Shown: one piece after another, positions 3,180 to 64,000 of the stretch
Position numbering within the stretch: position 1 is the first letter of the stretch
Layout of the letters: the number at the start of each line of letters is the position of its first letter
Assembly: GCF_004010155.1 (NCBI RefSeq)
Contig: NZ_RRYH01000018.1
Coordinates: 1-64,000, forward strand
DNA from: Solirhodobacter olei
Lineage (GTDB): Bacteria > Pseudomonadota > Alphaproteobacteria > Rhodobacterales > Rhodobacteraceae
Length of the DNA stretch: 64,000 bases
Direction of reading: 5' to 3'
Position numbers and translations under genes: made by a program
The notes under the pieces: generated by a model
The model's input: the letters and a program-made list of their open reading frames with translations, nothing else
Told to the model about the DNA's origin: nothing
Database searches by the model: none

Positions 3180-4439
3180 CTACTCCAGCTCGGCGCCGCT
3201 GAAGCTTCGGTGGTACATGTAGATATAGGCGCCCTGGAAAACCGCGGCGATGACGAAGGGAAGCTCCAGAAACCCCGCCTCGAACAGCGCGCCGGTCACC
3301 ACCGGCCCGACGGAGCGCGGGATCTGCAGCGAGACGGAGGCCGCGCTGGCGGCAAGCCCGCGGCGGTGCTGGCGGACGATGCCGGCCATCACCGCGCTGC
3401 GGGCGCCAGTGGTGGAGCGGTTGAAGACACTGCGGAACATGTAGAGCCCGGCCGCGATCCAGAAGCTTGGCGCGAACGGCATCGCGATCAGCATGGCAAG
3501 GCCGACAAGCCGCATGATCACCACCATCCTCACCGCGCCGAAGCGGTCGGCGAGACGGCCCGTCACCAAGAGCCCGGCGCCTGACAGGAGAAATCCGAGC
3601 GCCATGAGCGAGCCGATCGATGCAGGCCCCTCGCCGAAGCGGATCGCGAACCAGTAAGAGATCAGCGGCCCGGTCATGCCGATCCCGCTGCCGTTCAGCA
3701 TGTTCGACAGGATGAGCCGCAGGATCATCCCGTTCTCGCGCTTGCGGATCGCGGCCTCAGCGGCATCGGGAAGCGGCGCCGCCTCTGGGGCCGCGTCGCG
3801 CAGGCGGGCGGGCCTGGCCTCGCGGTCCTCGGCGCGGGAGATCAGCACGAGACAGACGGCCGAAGAAAGCGTGCAGAGCAGGAACAGCGGCCGGAAGGCG
3901 AGCGCACCGGGCAGCACCCCTTGCAGCCACGAGGGCGAGGTCGCCAGAAGCCCGCCGACCGCCATGCCGGCCGCGCCCGCCGCGCCGTTGATGCTGAAGA
4001 TCCGGCCGCGCGACCCGGCCGGGGCGCTCTGTGCGATCCAGGCTTGCTCGACCGGCGAGAACGGGCCCGCCGCGCCGTTGCCGCCCCGCCCGAAGCCGCC
4101 GACGATCCCGGCCAGGCCGATGGCCAGCGGCGCGGCGCTCAGCGCCGCGACGAGGGCGGCAAGAAGCTGCACGCTCTCATATGCCAGAAGGAAGCGGCGG
4201 CGGCCGGCGCGGTCGCTCAACGGGCCGACGATCAGCGTCAGCACGGAACCGAACAGCAGCGCCCCGCCAAGGACCAGGCTGATCTCCACCGCGCTCCAGC
4301 CGAGACGGTGCAGATAAAGCGAAAAGTCGACGACCAGCGCGCCCTGGCCAATGCTGCGAACGGCCCGGATGCCGATCAGAAGGCGGATCGTCCGCAACCC
4401 CGAGTCGGTCTCGGGCGTGATCCCGGTTGTCCGGTTCAT
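3180..4439 (-). CDS. MFS transporter
   Basis: Major facilitator superfamily permease, 419 aa, of the inner membrane. About twelve hydrophobic segments can be read. The loop between helices 2 and 3 carries the MFS signature in the form GPLSDRAGRRR, and a second related loop (GRLADRFGAVRM) follows helix 8. A polar stretch of about 40 residues in the middle (DREARPARLRDAAPEAAP) is the usual cytoplasmic link between the two six-helix halves. The substrate cannot be inferred; the N-terminal half resembles drug or sugar efflux members. It stands alone, with about 200 bases before the next gene on the same strand and no partner gene pointing to a pathway. Confidence 0.85.
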   Translation of the reverse strand: MNRTTGITPETDSGLRTIRLLIGIRAVRSIGQGALVVDFSLYLHRLGWSAVEISLVLGGALLFGSVLTLIVGPLSDRAGRRRFLLAYESVQLLAALVAALSAAPLAIGLAGIVGGFGRGGNGAAGPFSPVEQAWIAQSAPAGSRGRIFSINGAAGAAGMAVGGLLATSPSWLQGVLPGALAFRPLFLLCTLSSAVCLVLISRAEDREARPARLRDAAPEAAPLPDAAEAAIRKRENGMILRLILSNMLNGSGIGMTGPLISYWFAIRFGEGPASIGSLMALGFLLSGAGLLVTGRLADRFGAVRMVVIMRLVGLAMLIAMPFAPSFWIAAGLYMFRSVFNRSTTGARSAVMAGIVRQHRRGLAASAASVSLQIPRSVGPVVTGALFEAGFLELPFVIAAVFQGAYIYMYHRSFSGAELE

Positions 4440-54408: not shown

Positions 54409-55221
54409 TCAGGCCGCCTCGAAGCGGATCGGCCGGCGCAGAAACTGCACCGCCTTGTCCGACACATAGGCCGGGTTGCCCGTCGTCAGGAAGCGGGAGG
54501 CCGTGCCCGGACCCAGGAACTCCGGATGCCGGGCAAGGTAATCGGCCAGGCTCTCCGCCACCAGCGCGGCCTGCGAATAAAGCCGCACCTCCGGACCCAG
54601 CGCGGCCTGGAACACCTGCTGCATCAGCGGGTAATGCGTACAGCCCAGGATCGCCGCCTCCGGATGCGGCATCCGCCGTTTCAGCGCCTCGACATGGCTG
54701 CGCACCAGCGCCTCGGCCAGGATCTCGTCGCCCTGCTCGATCGCGTCGACCACGCCCGCGCAGGGCTGCGCCTCCACGTCCACGCCGATGGCGCGGAACG
54801 CCAGTTCCCGCTGAAAGGCGCGCGAGGCCACCGTCGCCGGCGTCGCGAACAGCGCCACATGCTTCACCTCGACTTCGCGCGGGGGGGAGTTGTCGCCCCA
54901 CTGCCGCTCGGTCAGCGCCTCGATCAGCGGCACGAAGACACCCAGCACACGCTTGTCGCCCGGGACCCATTTCTCCTGCATCCGCCTCAGCGCGGCGGCA
55001 GAGGCCGTGTTGCAGGCCAGGATCACCAGGTCGCAGCCTTCCGCCCACATCCGTTCGACCGCGGCGCAGGTCAGCTCGAAGATGTCGTCCGGCGTGCGCA
55101 CCCCGTAGGGCGCATGGGCGCTGTCGGCATAATAGACGAAGGGCACATCCGGCAGCCGCCGCGTCACCGCGTCCAGCACCGTGAGCCCGCCGAGCCCCGA
55201 ATCGAAGATCCCAACCGCCAT
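54409..55221 (-). CDS. murI: Glutamate racemase
   Basis: Cofactor-free racemase of 270 aa giving D-glutamate for peptidoglycan. The two catalytic cysteines are in [12 protein letters not shown] and [11 protein letters not shown], and [13 protein letters not shown] and [17 protein letters not shown] complete the family pattern. ATG 55221 has AGGAG at nine bases. It lies 81 bases upstream of ccmE on the same strand and 36 bases after the acyltransferase gene. Confidence 0.95.
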
Positions 55222-55257
55222 CGCCCGTCTCCTGCCCCGCCGGCAGGTGCGCCGGCG

Positions 55258-56136
55258 TCAGCCCTTGTACTTCTCGTCGAACTCGTAGCCGAGATCGAAG
55301 GATTTGAGGGGCCTCGGGGACAGTTCGTAGGTCGAACGGCGCAGGAAATCCATCATCTTCTTCGGGTCGCACTTGAGCGGCGCCAGCCGTGCGGCGGGGA
55401 TCGGCTCACCCACCACCAGCCGCACTGGTCCGCCCACCCGGCGGCCGAATTCCTTGATGAGCAGCGCCAGCCGCAGCGTCGGGTGCAGGTGGCTCGCAAG
55501 CTGGAAAAGGCGGCTGTTGTGACCGTCGAAGAACACCGGCACCACCGTGGCGCCCGATCGCGCGATCATCTTCGCGGTGAAGTTCCGCCAGCCCGGGTCC
55601 ATCGGCTGCCCGAAGGGTTTCAGCGCGGTCGAGACGGTGCCGCCCGGGAACACTCCCACGGCGCCGCCGCGGCCGAGATAGTCGAGCGCCGTCGCCCGCG
55701 TTTCCAGGTTCAGCCGCGTGGCCTCCCGCGTCTCGTCGAAGGAGATCGGCAGCACCACCTCGTCAAGCTCGCGCGCGCGACGGAAGACGTTGTTGGCCAG
55801 GATGCGGAAATCGCCGCGCATGCGGTCCAGCAGCAGCCCCAGCATCAGCCCGTCGAGGATGCCGTAGGGATGGTTCGCGATCACCACCAGCGGCCCGTTC
55901 GCCGGGATATGCGACAGCGACCCGCCGGCAAGCTCCAGCGTCAGCCCGTAGCGCGCCGCGATGACCTCCCAGAAGCTCTGGCCGCGGGCGACCTCATGCT
56001 CGTAGCCGCCGGCGCGGCGGATCAGGCGGAGGCGGCCGGTGGAATTCTCGATCGCCCGGATCATCACCCGTCCGCTGCGCGAACGCGCGGAATGGGCGTA
56101 GCTGATCTCGCTGGTGACCCGGTTGGATTTCATCAC
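55258..56136 (-). CDS. Lysophospholipid acyltransferase family protein
   Basis: A 292-aa acyltransferase of the PlsC/OlsA superfamily. The catalytic motif HX4D is NHPYGILDGLM, and VGVFPGGTVSTALKPFG and AKMIARSGATVVPVFFDGHN carry the glycerol-phosphate and substrate motifs. Similar proteins acylate lyso-phosphatidate or lyso-ornithine lipids; the exact substrate is open. It lacks a clear transmembrane anchor, with a basic N-terminus. Two adjacent ATG codons at the start make 56133 or 56136 possible. It is upstream of murI. Confidence 0.85.
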   Translation of the reverse strand: MMKSNRVTSEISYAHSARSRSGRVMIRAIENSTGRLRLIRRAGGYEHEVARGQSFWEVIAARYGLTLELAGGSLSHIPANGPLVVIANHPYGILDGLMLGLLLDRMRGDFRILANNVFRRARELDEVVLPISFDETREATRLNLETRATALDYLGRGGAVGVFPGGTVSTALKPFGQPMDPGWRNFTAKMIARSGATVVPVFFDGHNSRLFQLASHLHPTLRLALLIKEFGRRVGGPVRLVVGEPIPAARLAPLKCDPKKMMDFLRRSTYELSPRPLKSFDLGYEFDEKYKG

Positions 56137-56227
56137 GCGACTCGATGACCGTTTGCGGCGCGCTGATAGCGCGCCGGGGGTATTTTCTCCAGCACGAATG
56201 AAGGTTTCGTGACGTCGCCCCCTGCGG

Positions 56228-59200
56228 CTATTGCGCCGCCTCCCGCACCGGCTCGCCGCCCGCCCGGAACCGCGCCATCAGCGCCGCGCGCCGCTTTGCG
56301 ATCTTCTCGGCATTGGCGGCCTTCACCGGCCCGAAGCCCCGCAGCTGCAGCGGCAGCTCGGCGATCTCGACCGCGATATCCAGCGTCTCCGGCTTCAGGC
56401 CCCCGAGAACCTCGGCCATCTCCGCCTCATAGGCCTTGATCGCCGCGCGCTCCGCGCGCCGCTCCTGCGAGCGGCCGAACGGGTCGAGCACCGTACCGCG
56501 CAGCCGCTTCATCGACGCGAGAACCCGGAAGAGCCGCAGCACCCAGGGCCCGAATTCGCGCTTCGCCGGCCGCCCGCCCGCGCCCTTGTGGCCGAAGATC
56601 GGCGGGGCCAGGTGGAAGGTCATGCGGAAATCGCCGCCGAACTCTTCCTGCGCTTTCTTCGCGGTCTGCAGATGCAGCCGGGCGACCTCGTATTCGTCCT
56701 TGTAGGAAAGGAGCTTGTGATAGGCCTTCGCCACCGCCTCCTTCAGCTTCGGCTCCTCGAACCGGTCGACGAACTTCCGGTAGCGCGCGGCATAGCGGCG
56801 CGACTGGTAGGCCTTAAGGTGATCGGCGCGGAACGCGATCTTCTCGGCCAGCGTCTTCGGCAGGGCGACCACCTTGGGCGCGGCTTTCGCGGCGGCCTCC
56901 TCCGGATGCACCACCGCCCAGCGGCCCAGTTCGAAGGCCCGCTTGTTGGCCTCCGCCGCCGCGCCGTTGAGCTCGATCGCCTTCAGGATCGCCTCCTCGG
57001 ATAGCGGGATCAGCCCGTTCTGCCAGGCCGCGCCGAAGATCATCATGTTGGAATAGATCGAGTCGCCCAGAAGCGCCCGCGCCAGTTCCGACGCGTCGAA
57101 AAGGCTCAGCCGCTCCTTCAGCCGCGCTTCAAGACCAAGCTCCAACCGCCCGAAAGGCAACTGGAATTCCGTGTTGCGGGTGAATTCCCCGGTGATGATC
57201 TGGTGGCTGTTGACCACCGCGCCTGTGCGCCCGGTCGTCATCAGCCCCAGCGTCTTTGCCCCGGCAGTGGTGACCAGATCGCCGCCGATCACCGCGTCGG
57301 CCTCGCCCACCGCGACGCGCACGGCGGATATATCCTCCGGCCGCTCGGCGATCCGGCAGTGGATATGCACCGCGCCGCCCTTCTGGGCGAGGCCGGCCAT
57401 CTCCATCATCCCCGCGCCCTTGCCGTCGAGATGCGCCGCCATGGCCAGGATCGCGCCCACGGTCACCACGCCGGTCCCGCCGACGCCGGTGATCACCACG
57501 TTATGCGTGCCCCGGATCGCGGGCAGCACGGGCGCCGGCAGGTCCGGCACCTCCACCACCCGGGTCGCCGCCTTCTTCACCTTCGCGCCCTGCAGCGTCA
57601 CGAAGGACGGGCAGAAGCCGTTCAGGCAGGAGAAATCCTTGTTGCAGGACGACTGGTCGATCGCCCGCTTCCGCCCCAGCTCCGTCTCCACCGGCACGAT
57701 GGAGACGCAGTTCGACTGCACCCCGCAGTCGCCGCAGCCCTCGCAGACATCGGTGTTGATGAACACCCGCTTGTCGGGGTCCGGGAACTGCCCGCGCTTG
57801 CGCCGCCGCCGCTTCTCGGCCGCGCAGGTCTGGATGTAGATGATGGCAGAGACGCCCTCGATCTCGCGGAAGCTCTCCTGCACCGCCATGAACGCCTCGC
57901 GCTCGTGGAATTCCACCCCCTTGGGGAATTGCGAAAGCTCCGGCTTCTCCTTCTCGTCATAGACAATGGCGATCCTCTTCACCCCCATCGCCTGGATCTC
58001 GCGGGCGATGCGGTCGGCCGAAAGCCCGCCCTCGTTCTTCTGTCCGCCGGTCATCGCCACGGCGTCGTTGAACAGGATCTTGAAGGTGATGTTGGTTCCG
58101 GCCGCCAGCGCCGCCCGGATCGCCTGCGCGCCGGAATGGTTGTAGGTGCCGTCGCCGAGGTTCTGGAAGACATGCGCGCGCGTCGAGAACGGCGCCTCGC
58201 CCACCCAGTTCGCGCCCTCGCCGCCCATCTGCGTGAACCCCATGGTGGAGCGGTCCATCCACTGCACCATGTAATGGCAGCCGATCCCGGCATAGGCGCG
58301 GCTGCCTTCCGGCACCTTGGTCGAGGTGTTGTGCGGGCAGCCCGAGCAATAGTACGGCAGCCGCGCCGCGATGTCCTGCGCGTTATCGGCTTTCCGTGCC
58401 TCTTCAAGGCGTTGCAGCCCGGCCCTCAGGCGGTCCGTGCCGCGCCCCTCCTCCACCAGGATCTCGCCCAGCTTCTCGGCGATCAGGATCGGGTCGAGCG
58501 CGTAACGCGTCGGGAACAGCTCCATCCGCCGGCCGTGTTCCCAGGTGTCGCCCTTGTGCCAGCCGTAGACGCGGCGGCCTTGGCGATCCTCGAAGATCGC
58601 CTCCTTCACCTGCACCTCGATCAGCTTGCGCTTCTCCTCGACCACCACGATCAGGTCGAGCCCCTCGGCCCATTCGTGGAACGAGGTCATGTCCAGGGGC
58701 CAGGTCTGCGCCACCTTGTAGGTGGTGATCCCCAGCCGTTCGGCCTCGTCGGCGTCGATCCCCAGAAGGCTCAGCGCATGGACGAGGTCCAGCCAGTTCT
58801 TGCCGGCGGCGACGAAACCGATCTTGGCGCCCGGCTTGCCCCAGACGCGCTTGTCCATCCGGTTCGCCCGGGCGAATTCCTCCGCCGCGAACCGCTTGAA
58901 GTCGATCATCCGCGCTTCCTGAAGTACCGGCGTGTCGACCAGGCGGATGTTGAGGCCGCCGGGCGGCATCTTGAACTCGGGCGTCACGAACTGCAGGCGG
59001 TTCGGGTCGCCATCGACCACCGCGGTCGCCTCGATCGTGTCCTTCATCGTCTTAAGCCCGACCCAGACGCCTGCGAAACGGCTCAGCGCCCAGCCGTAAA
59101 GGCCAAGGTCGAGGATCTCCTGCACCCCGGCGGGCGAGACGATCGGCATGTAGGCGTCCAGCATTGCCCAGTCGGACTGGTGCAGCGTGGTGGAGCTTTC

Positions 59201-59650
59201 GCCGGTATGGTCGTCCCCCATCGCCATCAGCACACCGCCCCTGGGCGAGGAGCCGGCCATGTTGGCATGCCGCATCACGTCGCCCGAGCGGTCGACCCCC
59301 GGCCCCTTCCCGTACCAGAGCGCGAAGACCCCGTCGAACTTGCCCTCGCCCCTGAGTTCCGCCTGCTGGCTGCCCCAGACGGCGGTGGCGGCGAGATCCT
59401 CGTTCAGGCCCGGCTGGAACAGCACGTCGGCCGCCGAAAGCTCCTTTTTCGCCCGCGCCATCTGCAGGTCCACCGCGCCAAGCGGCGAGCCGCGATAGCC
59501 CGTCACATAGCCCGCCGTGTTCAGCCCCGCCGCCCTGTCGCGCGCCTTCTGCATCAGCATCAGCCGCACCAGCGCCTGTGTCCCGTTCAACAGAACAGGT
59601 GATTTTTCCAGGTCGAACCGGTCGGAAAGCTGGACATTCTGAAGGCTCAT
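56228..59650 (-). CDS. Indolepyruvate ferredoxin oxidoreductase family protein (fused)
   Basis: Large TPP/Fe-S enzyme of 1140 aa joining the alpha and beta parts of archaeal IorAB in one chain. The N-terminal pyrimidine and TPP domains include MGDDHTGESSTTLHQSDWAM and a PP-type region with PYYCSGCPHNTS, then the ferredoxin site CEGCGDCGVQSNC with CNKDFSCLNGFCPSF. The C-terminal gamma part has GVGGTGVVTVGAILAMAAHL. It decarboxylates aryl pyruvates in aromatic amino acid breakdown. ATG 59650 follows GGGGAG. Divergent from a LysR with a strong box between. Confidence 0.92.
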   Translation of the reverse strand: MSLQNVQLSDRFDLEKSPVLLNGTQALVRLMLMQKARDRAAGLNTAGYVTGYRGSPLGAVDLQMARAKKELSAADVLFQPGLNEDLAATAVWGSQQAELRGEGKFDGVFALWYGKGPGVDRSGDVMRHANMAGSSPRGGVLMAMGDDHTGESSTTLHQSDWAMLDAYMPIVSPAGVQEILDLGLYGWALSRFAGVWVGLKTMKDTIEATAVVDGDPNRLQFVTPEFKMPPGGLNIRLVDTPVLQEARMIDFKRFAAEEFARANRMDKRVWGKPGAKIGFVAAGKNWLDLVHALSLLGIDADEAERLGITTYKVAQTWPLDMTSFHEWAEGLDLIVVVEEKRKLIEVQVKEAIFEDRQGRRVYGWHKGDTWEHGRRMELFPTRYALDPILIAEKLGEILVEEGRGTDRLRAGLQRLEEARKADNAQDIAARLPYYCSGCPHNTSTKVPEGSRAYAGIGCHYMVQWMDRSTMGFTQMGGEGANWVGEAPFSTRAHVFQNLGDGTYNHSGAQAIRAALAAGTNITFKILFNDAVAMTGGQKNEGGLSADRIAREIQAMGVKRIAIVYDEKEKPELSQFPKGVEFHEREAFMAVQESFREIEGVSAIIYIQTCAAEKRRRRKRGQFPDPDKRVFINTDVCEGCGDCGVQSNCVSIVPVETELGRKRAIDQSSCNKDFSCLNGFCPSFVTLQGAKVKKAATRVVEVPDLPAPVLPAIRGTHNVVITGVGGTGVVTVGAILAMAAHLDGKGAGMMEMAGLAQKGGAVHIHCRIAERPEDISAVRVAVGEADAVIGGDLVTTAGAKTLGLMTTGRTGAVVNSHQIITGEFTRNTEFQLPFGRLELGLEARLKERLSLFDASELARALLGDSIYSNMMIFGAAWQNGLIPLSEEAILKAIELNGAAAEANKRAFELGRWAVVHPEEAAAKAAPKVVALPKTLAEKIAFRADHLKAYQSRRYAARYRKFVDRFEEPKLKEAVAKAYHKLLSYKDEYEVARLHLQTAKKAQEEFGGDFRMTFHLAPPIFGHKGAGGRPAKREFGPWVLRLFRVLASMKRLRGTVLDPFGRSQERRAERAAIKAYEAEMAEVLGGLKPETLDIAVEIAELPLQLRGFGPVKAANAEKIAKRRAALMARFRAGGEPVREAAQ

Positions 59651-59686
59651 GGCGCATCTCCCCAAGGCGCTAGGAACCCCTCAATG

Positions 59687-59741
59687 GTAGGTCAAAAAAG
59701 CTGACCTACAAAGAACTTCTTGTTCAAAAAAGTCATTTACA
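59687..59741. promoter_or_regulatory. LysR box and degenerate copy between the oxidoreductase and LysR genes
   Basis: GTAGGTCA-N7-TGACCTAC (59687-59709) is an 8-bp perfect inverted repeat containing T-N11-A. A related sequence TTCAAAAAAGTCATTTAC starts about 31 bases later (59723). This is the usual pair of recognition and activation sites of LysR regulators. Confidence 0.65.
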
Positions 59742-59808
59742 AGCCAGATTTCCTCACTAGGTAAGCGGCGGCCATGTTAGCGTCCGACAAATAAAACAGA
59801 GTTGCGTG

Positions 59809-60705
59809 ATGGATTGGGACAAGCTCAGAATCTTCCATGCGGTGGCCGACGCCGGCAGCCTCACCCATGCAGGTGATGCGCTGCACCTGTCGCAATCGGC
59901 CGTCTCGCGCCAGATTCGTGCGCTCGAGGAAAGCCTGAAGACGACCCTCTTCCACCGCCATGCCCGCGGCCTGATTCTCACCGAACAGGGCGAGCTGCTG
60001 TTCGAGGCGACCTCGGCCATGGTCAAGCGCCTCGACGCCGCCGAGGCCCGCATCCGCGATACCGAGGACGAGGTCTTCGGCGAGCTGCGCGTCACCACCG
60101 CCACCGGCTTCGGCACGCTCTTCCTCGCCCCGCGGCTCTCCAAGCTCTACGCCCGCTACCCCGACCTGAAGATCGACCTGATGCTGGAGGAACGCGTCCT
60201 CGACCTGCCGATGCGCGAGGCGGACGTGGCGATCCGCATGAAGGAGCCGAGCCAGGCCGACCTCATCCGCAAGCGGCTGATGAACATCCGGATGCGGCTC
60301 TACGCCTCCAGCCAGTACCTCGACGAGCGCGGCACGCCCGTGGAGCTGGAGGATCTGTCGCATCACCGCCTGCTCTGCCAGGCGCCGCACACCCCCCAGG
60401 TCGCCGCCGGCGCCGCGCTGACGCAGACGTTGATGGCCTACAACATCGCCTCGACCCTGACGGTGAACAACTATTTTGGGGTGCTGCAGGCGGTGCTGTC
60501 GAACCTCGGCATCGGCGTCCTGCCGGATTACCTGACCAAGGATTTCCCGCATCTCGTTCGCGTCCTGCCGGATGTGGAGTCCACCGAGGTCCCGGTGTTC
60601 CTCGCCTATCCGGAGGAACTGCGCCATTCCAAGCGCGTCGCAGCCTTCCGCGACTTCGTGATCGAGGAGATCGTCGCCCACCGCCAGCGCCAGGACGCCG
60701 GCTGA
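59809..60705 (+). CDS. LysR family transcriptional regulator
   Basis: Regulator of 298 aa with a helix-turn-helix (MDWDKLRIFHAVADAGSLTH, then AGDALHLSQSAVSRQIRALE) and a LysR effector domain. It is divergent from the indolepyruvate oxidoreductase and separated by a clear LysR box, so it likely controls that gene and itself; the effector may be an aromatic amino acid or keto acid. ATG 59809 is adopted; GTG at 59806 directly before is equivalent. Note the run GDALHLSQSAVSRQIRALEE in place of commoner forms. Confidence 0.88.
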   Translation: MDWDKLRIFHAVADAGSLTHAGDALHLSQSAVSRQIRALEESLKTTLFHRHARGLILTEQGELLFEATSAMVKRLDAAEARIRDTEDEVFGELRVTTATGFGTLFLAPRLSKLYARYPDLKIDLMLEERVLDLPMREADVAIRMKEPSQADLIRKRLMNIRMRLYASSQYLDERGTPVELEDLSHHRLLCQAPHTPQVAAGAALTQTLMAYNIASTLTVNNYFGVLQAVLSNLGIGVLPDYLTKDFPHLVRVLPDVESTEVPVFLAYPEELRHSKRVAAFRDFVIEEIVAHRQRQDAG

Positions 60706-60758
60706 GACGACGGTCCCCGACGCGCCACGGCCACATATGCGACAAATGCATAGCGGCC

Positions 60759-60779
60759 ATGATGCTGCATCAGCATCAT
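60759..60779 (+). terminator. Inverted repeat after the LysR gene
   Basis: ATGATGCT-GCATC-AGCATCAT is an 8-bp perfect stem with a five-base loop, 54 bases after the stop and followed by TTCCC. A likely transcript end or stabiliser of the LysR mRNA. Confidence 0.5.
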
Positions 60780-60819
60780 TTCCCTTGAACCAAGCGCCGT
60801 GGAACCCTAACTGCACTGC

Positions 60820-60900
60820 AGAAGGATTTGATTGACACTGTCTCAAAGCCTTCTACCTCCCTGTTGGACTTGGGCCGAGCTTTTGCTCGGCCTTTTTTTT
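60820..60900 (+). ncRNA. Candidate small RNA with two hairpins and Rho-independent terminator
   Basis: A putative promoter TTGAAC (60785-60790), 17-base spacer and TAACTG (60808-60813) lies just upstream. The predicted transcript starts near 60820. Stem AGAAGG/CCTTCT (60820-60825 with 60849-60854) is continued by TTTGA/TCAAA and a small GAC/GTC. A single-stranded ACCTCCC (60855-60861) follows, then the terminator GGCCGAGC-TTTT-GCTCGGCC with eight T residues (60873-60900). About 81 nt, no coding potential. No known family recognised. Confidence 0.62.
60873..60900 (+). terminator. Strong Rho-independent terminator of the candidate sRNA
   Basis: Perfect 8-bp GC-rich stem (60873-60880 and 60885-60892), TTTT loop and a run of eight T. 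It is the most canonical terminator of the window and is not adjacent to the end of any protein gene on the plus strand (LysR ends 168 bases earlier). Confidence 0.9.
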
Positions 60901-61183
60901 GCTTTTGCGCCGGGCTGCCGGAATTTGCCGCAGCGCAGCGCCGGCCTGCCGCTTTGGCGGGCGGTCTGCGGATCGGGGCACGGCTTCGGATAAATCTCAA
61001 AACACCCAGGGGTTGCATTTTTCCAGACCTCCACAACAATGCCGCGATGAGTATCCGGTTTTCGCCGAATTCATCACGCAACCGTGAGGCATCACCGATC
61101 CGAACCGGGAAGGATCGCCCGAGGCCGCAGAAGCGCCTTCTGGCCCACCCCCGTCCTGGCGCCTGCGAACCAGAGGATGCTTC

Positions 61184-61570
61184 ATGACCAAGGCAGTGAA
61201 GAACATCACGCACATGGGTCCCCCCATCGCGCTTCCGCCGCGGGCGCCTTCGGTTTCCGACCACCCCGCCAGCTCCGGCGGCATCGGCAGCGCGACAGAC
61301 CAGGCCGACTTCCTGGCCTGGGCGCGGGCGAAGCACATCGGCGTCACGCTGGTCTCCGCCGACGGCCAGACGCTGGGAACGGTAGAGGACGTGCGCCTGG
61401 CCGAGGCCGGGCTTCTCCACCTCGCCATCCGCCCGCATCCGGGGCTGGGCCTCCGCCCCGCACAGGTCTGGCTGAAGCTGCGCCCCGCCGGCCGTCCGGG
61501 CCGGACGATCGAGATCGCGCTCACCGCGGCGCAGTTCTCCAGCACCGCGGCGCCCCGGCTCGAGGCGTGA
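61184..61570 (+). CDS. Hypothetical protein with PRC-barrel-like core
   Basis: A 128-aa protein. The N-terminal 45 residues are Pro/Ser/Gly-rich and probably disordered. Residues about 50-120 (VTLVSADGQTLGTVEDVRLA, then LLHLAIRPHPGLGLRPAQVW) alternate strands like a PRC-barrel, but the resemblance is weak. No signal peptide. ATG 61184 follows AGAGGATG. It is located between the sRNA candidate and purL; function unknown. Confidence 0.62.
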   Translation: MTKAVKNITHMGPPIALPPRAPSVSDHPASSGGIGSATDQADFLAWARAKHIGVTLVSADGQTLGTVEDVRLAEAGLLHLAIRPHPGLGLRPAQVWLKLRPAGRPGRTIEIALTAAQFSSTAAPRLEA

Positions 61571-61684
61571 TCCCGGTCGGCCCTTCCCCTGGCAAGGGCC
61601 GCCACATGTCGGTTTCGGGCACTTTCTCCCTTCCCTCCCAAACACCCGCCGCCTAAAAGGCGCCAAACGAGGTGGGAGCGCCGG

Positions 61685-63844
<2,160 letters not shown>

Positions 63845-63853
63845 TCCCCCGCC

Positions 63854-63881
63854 GTAGGGTGCGCATTCATTGCGCACCTCC
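63854..63881. repeat. Dispersed palindromic repeat, family A (copy 2)
   Basis: GGTGCGCA-TTCAT-TGCGCACC (63858-63878) with flanking CGTAG, nine bases after the purL stop. It is identical over 27 bases to the copy after gyrA. The remaining 120 bases to the window end show nothing supported. Confidence 0.85.
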
Positions 63882-64000
63882 TCCCCCCAATTTCGGCCCG
63901 AAACAGCGGGCGCTTCTGGTGAGTCATCGCCCCGGCAAACCGAAGGGGTTCATTACCCCATAAACGGACAGACCCTCCTCTCCGCCAGCGCCCCCCCTGC

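Follow-up and report, generated by a model that had tools for sequence, protein, structure and literature searches.

A free-standing small RNA (sRNA) gene, consisting of a promoter, a 5' hairpin, a CCUCCC linker, and a terminator, lies at 60819-60900 of the window, the 64,000-nucleotide stretch of Solirhodobacter olei DNA that was analysed. We are highly confident that it is a real, well-conserved sRNA gene and that its RNA is the orthologue of SorY. SorY, the known counterpart, has been studied in Rhodobacter sphaeroides as an RNA involved in oxidative stress. A previous reading of the window from the sequence alone (hereafter, the sequence-only reading) had proposed a free-standing sRNA of ~80 nt with a CCUCCC element, and this proposal was borne out, the elements being present in the sequence. 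The features of the locus are as follows.

59806-60705, + strand: LysR-family regulator, conserved upstream neighbour (Pfam PF03466 and PF00126; synteny)
60784-60812, + strand: RpoH-type promoter, CTTGAA-N17-CTAACT (likeness to R. sphaeroides, conservation, RpoHI/RpoHII determinants)
60819-60900, + strand: predicted transcript of the putative SorY orthologue, ~82 nt (RF02651 match; end in the T run)
60820-60854, + strand: 5' hairpin, AGAAGG.TTTGA ... TCAAA.CCTTCT (folding, conservation, covariation)
60856-60871, + strand: conserved core CCTCCCTGTTGGACTT, with CCTCCC complementary to the Shine-Dalgarno sequence (exact in 52/56 copies)
60872-60900, + strand: intrinsic terminator with a 9-pair stem and 8 T (hairpin 60872-60893, then T to 60900)
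61685-63844, + strand: purL, conserved downstream neighbour (Pfam AIRS, AIRS_C, and FGAR-AT_linker; synteny)

Identity of the sRNA

The Rfam SorY model RF02651 matches 60822-60900 over its full length (model positions 1-83 of 83) with a score of 70.5 bits (E = 3.2e-14). When the organism's own genome was searched with this model, the E value was 7.5e-14 at this site and 2.5e-4 for the next match. The score falls short of the RF02651 gathering score of 111 bits, and at the Rfam gathering thresholds three tRNA matches and no others were obtained in the window. The latter result favours a new family of anti-Shine-Dalgarno (anti-SD) sRNAs, which was the interpretation of the sequence-only reading. 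It is opposed by the full-length SorY match, by the presence of SorY at the corresponding R. sphaeroides locus, and by the SorY scores, which run from 115 bits downward across Rhodobacteraceae; we regard a new family as extremely improbable.

RF02651 was searched against 394 Rhodobacteraceae genomes (393 genera). Matches at E <= 1e-6 were found in 323/394 genomes, part of which may match through SorX instead, and the gathering score was passed by 1/394. Because just one of the 394 genomes is admitted, we read the gathering score as closeness to R. sphaeroides and not as the limit of the SorY family. The lone genome over the threshold carries its SorY match at 1,632,645 and a SorX-like match at 2,598,257. 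The 5' ends published for R. sphaeroides, as given in the excerpted part of PMC6238624, are 1,632,642 for the SorY transcription start site (TSS) and 2,598,224 for SorX. Because the coordinates of the two RNAs fit the published ones, this genome must be that of R. sphaeroides 2.4.1 or of something very close to it.

The gene order in R. sphaeroides is LysR-SorY-PurL, as in the window, and identity is 81% for the LysR protein and 88% for purL. R. sphaeroides SorY (RSs1543) and the window RNA are alike in the lysR-sorY-purL locus, the -35 hexamer and its spacing, the length, the 5' hairpin, the core, and the terminator; they differ in the hairpin sequence, the sub-threshold RF02651 score of the window RNA, and a 128-aa open reading frame (ORF) that precedes purL in the window. 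According to the excerpted parts of three reports, SorY in R. sphaeroides is transcribed from a promoter of its own, is controlled by RpoE, RpoHI, and RpoHII, and is bound by Hfq (PMC6238624, PMC8307010, PMC5036791). Given the full-length RF02651 match, the R. sphaeroides SorY locus, and the spread of matches in the family, the earlier description of the sRNA as undescribed does not hold.

Conservation of the locus

A neighbour was accepted as LysR at >= 60% identity, on the same strand, and within 500 nt, and as PurL at >= 60% identity downstream. Core copies had been filtered at one step for at most three core substitutions and a T run behind. Among the matches listed, LysR upstream and/or PurL downstream were found at 164/185 distinct core copies, and both were found at 112. 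By source, one or both neighbours were present at 28/29 loci of the similarity search, in 6/6 congeners, and at 26/29 of the top SorY matches. A search with the exact core pattern gave at least 119 stretches, and 112/119 of these loci had at least one neighbour among the matches listed. The other 21 core copies comprised 11 that were SorX-like by eye (GGACTG before a GCCC/GACC stem), 2 within ~160 nt of a stretch end, 1 weak match in the own genome, and 7 remaining copies.

Loci L005 and L189 are good SorY matches whose flanks, as far as fetched, contain neither LysR nor PurL. At L190 and L197, also good SorY matches, LysR lies 1.2-1.3 kb upstream, versus the usual 0.1-0.3 kb. In one family genome (L012), the lysR-purL gap contains two SorY-like copies, of which the second is diverged and lies 182 nt downstream of the first.

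The 128-aa ORF of the window, at 61184-61570 on the + strand, sits between the sRNA and purL. It had been termed a PRC-like gene, for which no support was obtained, as the Pfam search was blank at E <= 0.001. The ORF was not found by tblastn in the fetched flanks of six congeners. The purL start lies 229-270 nt past the core in the five congeners where purL was reached, versus 830 nt here.

A class-wide search was carried out with model R1, which was derived from a mixed alignment and represents the terminator and a 2-pair mini-stem only. This model matched 26/289 genomes at E <= 1e-4, and all matches below 1e-8 were in Rhodobacteraceae. Outside this family, the matches of R1 among the 289 genomes of the class were weaker (best E, 3e-7).

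Promoter and transcription start

The promoter hexamers can be read in two ways: TTGAAC (60785-60790), 17 nt, and TAACTG (60808-60813); or, as an RpoH-type promoter, CTTGAA (60784-60789), N17, and CTAACT (60807-60812). The former had been proposed as a sigma-70-like promoter. Its letters are indeed there, but the RpoH-type reading fits better, and a plain sigma-70 scan of 55000-64000 (>= 9/12) did not list the promoter at 60784-60813. The RpoH-type score was equalled in 5/1000 dinucleotide shuffles of the upstream stretch. The determinants of RpoHI/RpoHII promoters given in the excerpted part of PMC3441632 are TTG at -36 to -34, C-37, A-12, C-14/T-13, and T-9, and this full set was found in the window promoter. 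Upstream of R. sphaeroides SorY (L003), the corresponding sequence is CTTGAA-N17-CTAAAT, with the -35 hexamer and the spacing identical to those of the window. Judged by its letters, RpoH-type is a better description of the promoter than sigma-70.

Two of the 164 syntenic copies were dropped for short upstream sequence, leaving 162. Among the matches listed, a TTG-centred promoter match of at least 9/12 letters was found in 142/162 copies, and in 92/142 the promoter starts 71-74 nt 5' of the core. In the shuffle control (20 rounds of dinucleotide shuffles), the promoter score had a mean of 6.2 and a maximum of 10. The predicted start at 60819 was transferred via L003 from the R. sphaeroides TSS published in the excerpted part of PMC6238624; counting by the RpoH logo gives 60821.

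Structure of the 5' hairpin

The nested stem put forward by the sequence-only reading is present, with the outer arms AGAAGG (60820-60825) and CCTTCT (60849-60854) and the inner arms TTTGA (60827-60831) and TCAAA (60843-60847), and it folds far below shuffles. RNA 60815-60899 folds at -32.3 kcal/mol (z = -5.37), and 0/200 shuffles were as good. After removal of 5/162 copies with a promoter score below 8, the 5' part was folded alone in the remaining 157 copies; the median z was -3.8, and 97% were below -2.

The 5' stem was not recovered in an RNAalifold consensus of 50 mixed sequences, in which MAFFT had aligned two kinds of spacer, CTTCTACC and CTTCATACC, as if they shared a register. The two types were split for separate stem alignments, with 16 and 19 sequences hand-picked out of the 157. 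In the spacer type of the window (16 sequences), 84% of stem cells were paired and 9/14 pairs had changed on both sides. The covariation score was 0.316 versus 0.177 in shuffles, a value reached by 0/500 shuffles, although shuffling related sequences overstates significance; slid versions of the stem scored at most 0.155. In the other type (19 sequences), 68% of stem cells were paired and the score was 0.317 versus 0.240 (2/500 shuffles, with the same overstatement), slid versions reaching at most 0.237. Eight pairs of this type had changed on both sides versus 6.3 in shuffles, a count equalled by 86/500, and double-change cells numbered 21 in one slid version versus 18 in the real stem. A lack of compensatory changes in relatives had been named beforehand as a refutation of the sRNA; such changes are clear in the window's own spacer type and weaker in the other.

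Core, linker, and terminator

The core CCTCCCTGTTGGACTT was exact in 52/56 distinct syntenic copies that were not chosen by the exact pattern. Other counts of core invariance are partly due to selection, as the copies were gathered by core similarity or by the exact core pattern. ACCTCCC (60855-60861) forms the linker between the two hairpins. The earlier description of this element as unpaired is correct in that it is mostly open, with a mean unpaired probability of 0.70 for ACCUCCC in the window RNA; it is only mostly so because its final two C form weak pairs with the conserved GG on their 3' side. By a strict test, CCUCCC was fully unpaired in the minimum free energy structure of 2/157 copies. 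Its unpaired probability in the ensemble exceeded 0.8 in 2/157 copies and 0.6 in 132/157. As judged from sequence complementarity, an anti-SD mechanism appears well founded.

The terminator is the sole one with a T run of at least 6 among the 11 hairpins that precede T runs of at least 5 in the 64 kb. It had been called the best terminator in the window, which depends on the measure: its T run is the longest, but two minus-strand 5-T hairpins are lower in energy (-26.0 and -19.1 versus -18.4). A terminator pattern scan of 55000-64000 gave 7 sites, no excess over shuffles (mean, 5.2).

Comparison with related sRNAs

The core CCUCCCUGUUGGACU is common to SorX and the window RNA, and the SorX model RF02784 scores 43.6 bits here, slightly under its gathering score of 46.6. 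These two points would suit a copy of SorX, or a paralogue resembling it, in place of SorY. Against this, the SorY model scores 70.5 bits, SorX copies above the gathering score are found elsewhere in the genome (G000:C51:3822-3894 and 4070-4142; 72.3 and 67.0 bits), and the window RNA, unlike SorX, is preceded by a promoter of its own and flanked by the SorY neighbours. We therefore consider the SorX alternative very unlikely, and SorY is retained. Both SorX copies of the own genome (L031) are in tandem and follow a gene for an OmpR-type response regulator, which is also where SorX lies in R. sphaeroides. According to the excerpted part of PMC6238624, the 3' UTR from which SorX is cut belongs to an OmpR-type gene. 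SorX (RSs2461, RF02784) thus resembles the window RNA in the core, the hairpin before it, and the terminator after it, and differs in its origin from that 3' UTR, whereas the window RNA follows lysR and has its own promoter. Two core-like matches ~200 nt apart were observed in each of the congeners G064 and G066.

The mmgR/alpha-r8 model RF00519 scores 32.2 bits at this site, its sole match in the own genome at E <= 0.01. In MmgR and SisA-D of this group, as in the window RNA, GACUU and a terminator come after the CUCCCU motif. The score is under the gathering score of 41, and SorY fits far better. The locus also differs: the window RNA is flanked by LysR and PurL, not by the N-formylglutamate amidohydrolase that, in the excerpted part of PMC12559287, marks most alpha-r8 loci. 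There is hardly any chance that the window RNA belongs to the alpha-r8 group and not to SorY. The Caulobacter alpha-r8 RNAs (SisA) act by means of a 10-mer that bears an anti-SD signature, according to the same excerpt (PMC12559287). SorY, SorX, and the alpha-r8 RNAs may work alike.

The sequence-only reading had set the layout apart from that of the CcsR RNAs, rightly so. CcsR1-4, which we take to be the CuckooRNAs, resemble the window RNA as stress sRNAs with an anti-SD C-rich motif. StsR, which is RpoH-dependent, was considered through the literature only and was set aside. In the CcsR RNAs, CCUCCUCCC or aSD motifs are found in repeated hairpin loops (PMC3927594, excerpted part), whereas the window RNA has one hairpin before the terminator and a single CCUCCC in the linker between the two stems.

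takP as a candidate target

The takP gene was located in the R. sphaeroides genome via the solved structure 2hzk, which we take to be TakP, and the orthologue in the own genome is 64% identical to R. sphaeroides TakP. L212 was tried as takP and ruled out, being DctP. The takP leaders of both organisms have a strong GGGAGG Shine-Dalgarno (SD) sequence, complementary to CCUCCC. Pairing of the own takP leader TCCAACTTGGGAGG with CCUCCC-U-GUUGGA is predicted at -21.9 kcal/mol, stronger than for 63/66 background SD leaders; in the comparison with shuffled flanks, 7% of the shuffles of this leader paired equally well.

The takP set comprised 59 leaders, 55 of them distinct (L239, with 49% identity, was excluded), and the 66 background leaders were those of long ORFs chosen mechanically. 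Taken together, the takP-type leaders showed stronger pairing than the background (Mann-Whitney p = 0.008). With the SD fixed at GGGAGG, takP was no better than the background (p = 0.22); at GGAGG, p was 0.008. The pairing is striking in some of the leaders, but beyond the SD, pairing of the 55 distinct takP-type leaders was no better than that of shuffled flanks (median fraction, 0.50; Fisher p = 0.15), and 3/55 were below 0.05. On these predictions, takP is a plausible target in the window organism. Close takP relatives (E <= 1e-100) were found in 55/394 genomes, versus 323/394 for the sRNA, and distant TakP-like proteins (E <= 1e-20) were found in 60/61 genomes.

Discussion

The SorY orthologue is most likely a stress-induced anti-SD repressor, as judged from R. 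sphaeroides SorY. Under stress, it would be transcribed by RpoHI/RpoHII-type sigma factors, and Hfq would assist it, probably at the U-rich tail; both steps are suggested by SorY and by general knowledge. Pairing of CCUCCC would then repress mRNAs with a strong GGGAGG SD, and GUUGGA may extend the pairing in some targets. The mRNA of a takP-type TRAP transporter is one candidate target, whose repression would reduce the import of malate/keto acids and the flux through the TCA cycle in stress.

The false call of an undescribed sRNA had its source in the Rfam SorY threshold, which leaves the RNA unseen in almost all of the family. The misplaced threshold is one by-product of this analysis, and the spread of SorY beyond the close relatives of takP is another. 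A tentative reading of this spread, which we hold as possible but somewhat doubtful, is that SorY is an old and very widespread stress regulator of Rhodobacteraceae, kept under RpoH control in the gap from lysR to purL, with a strongly conserved 16-nt core shared with SorX and more loosely with the alpha-r8 RNAs; through this core, it would be an arm of a many-target anti-SD network and not a takP-tied oddity of Rhodobacter. This reading is weakened because distant TakP-like proteins are so common. Since the sRNA is commoner than the close relatives of takP, its one studied target, further targets of importance are probable in most Rhodobacteraceae.
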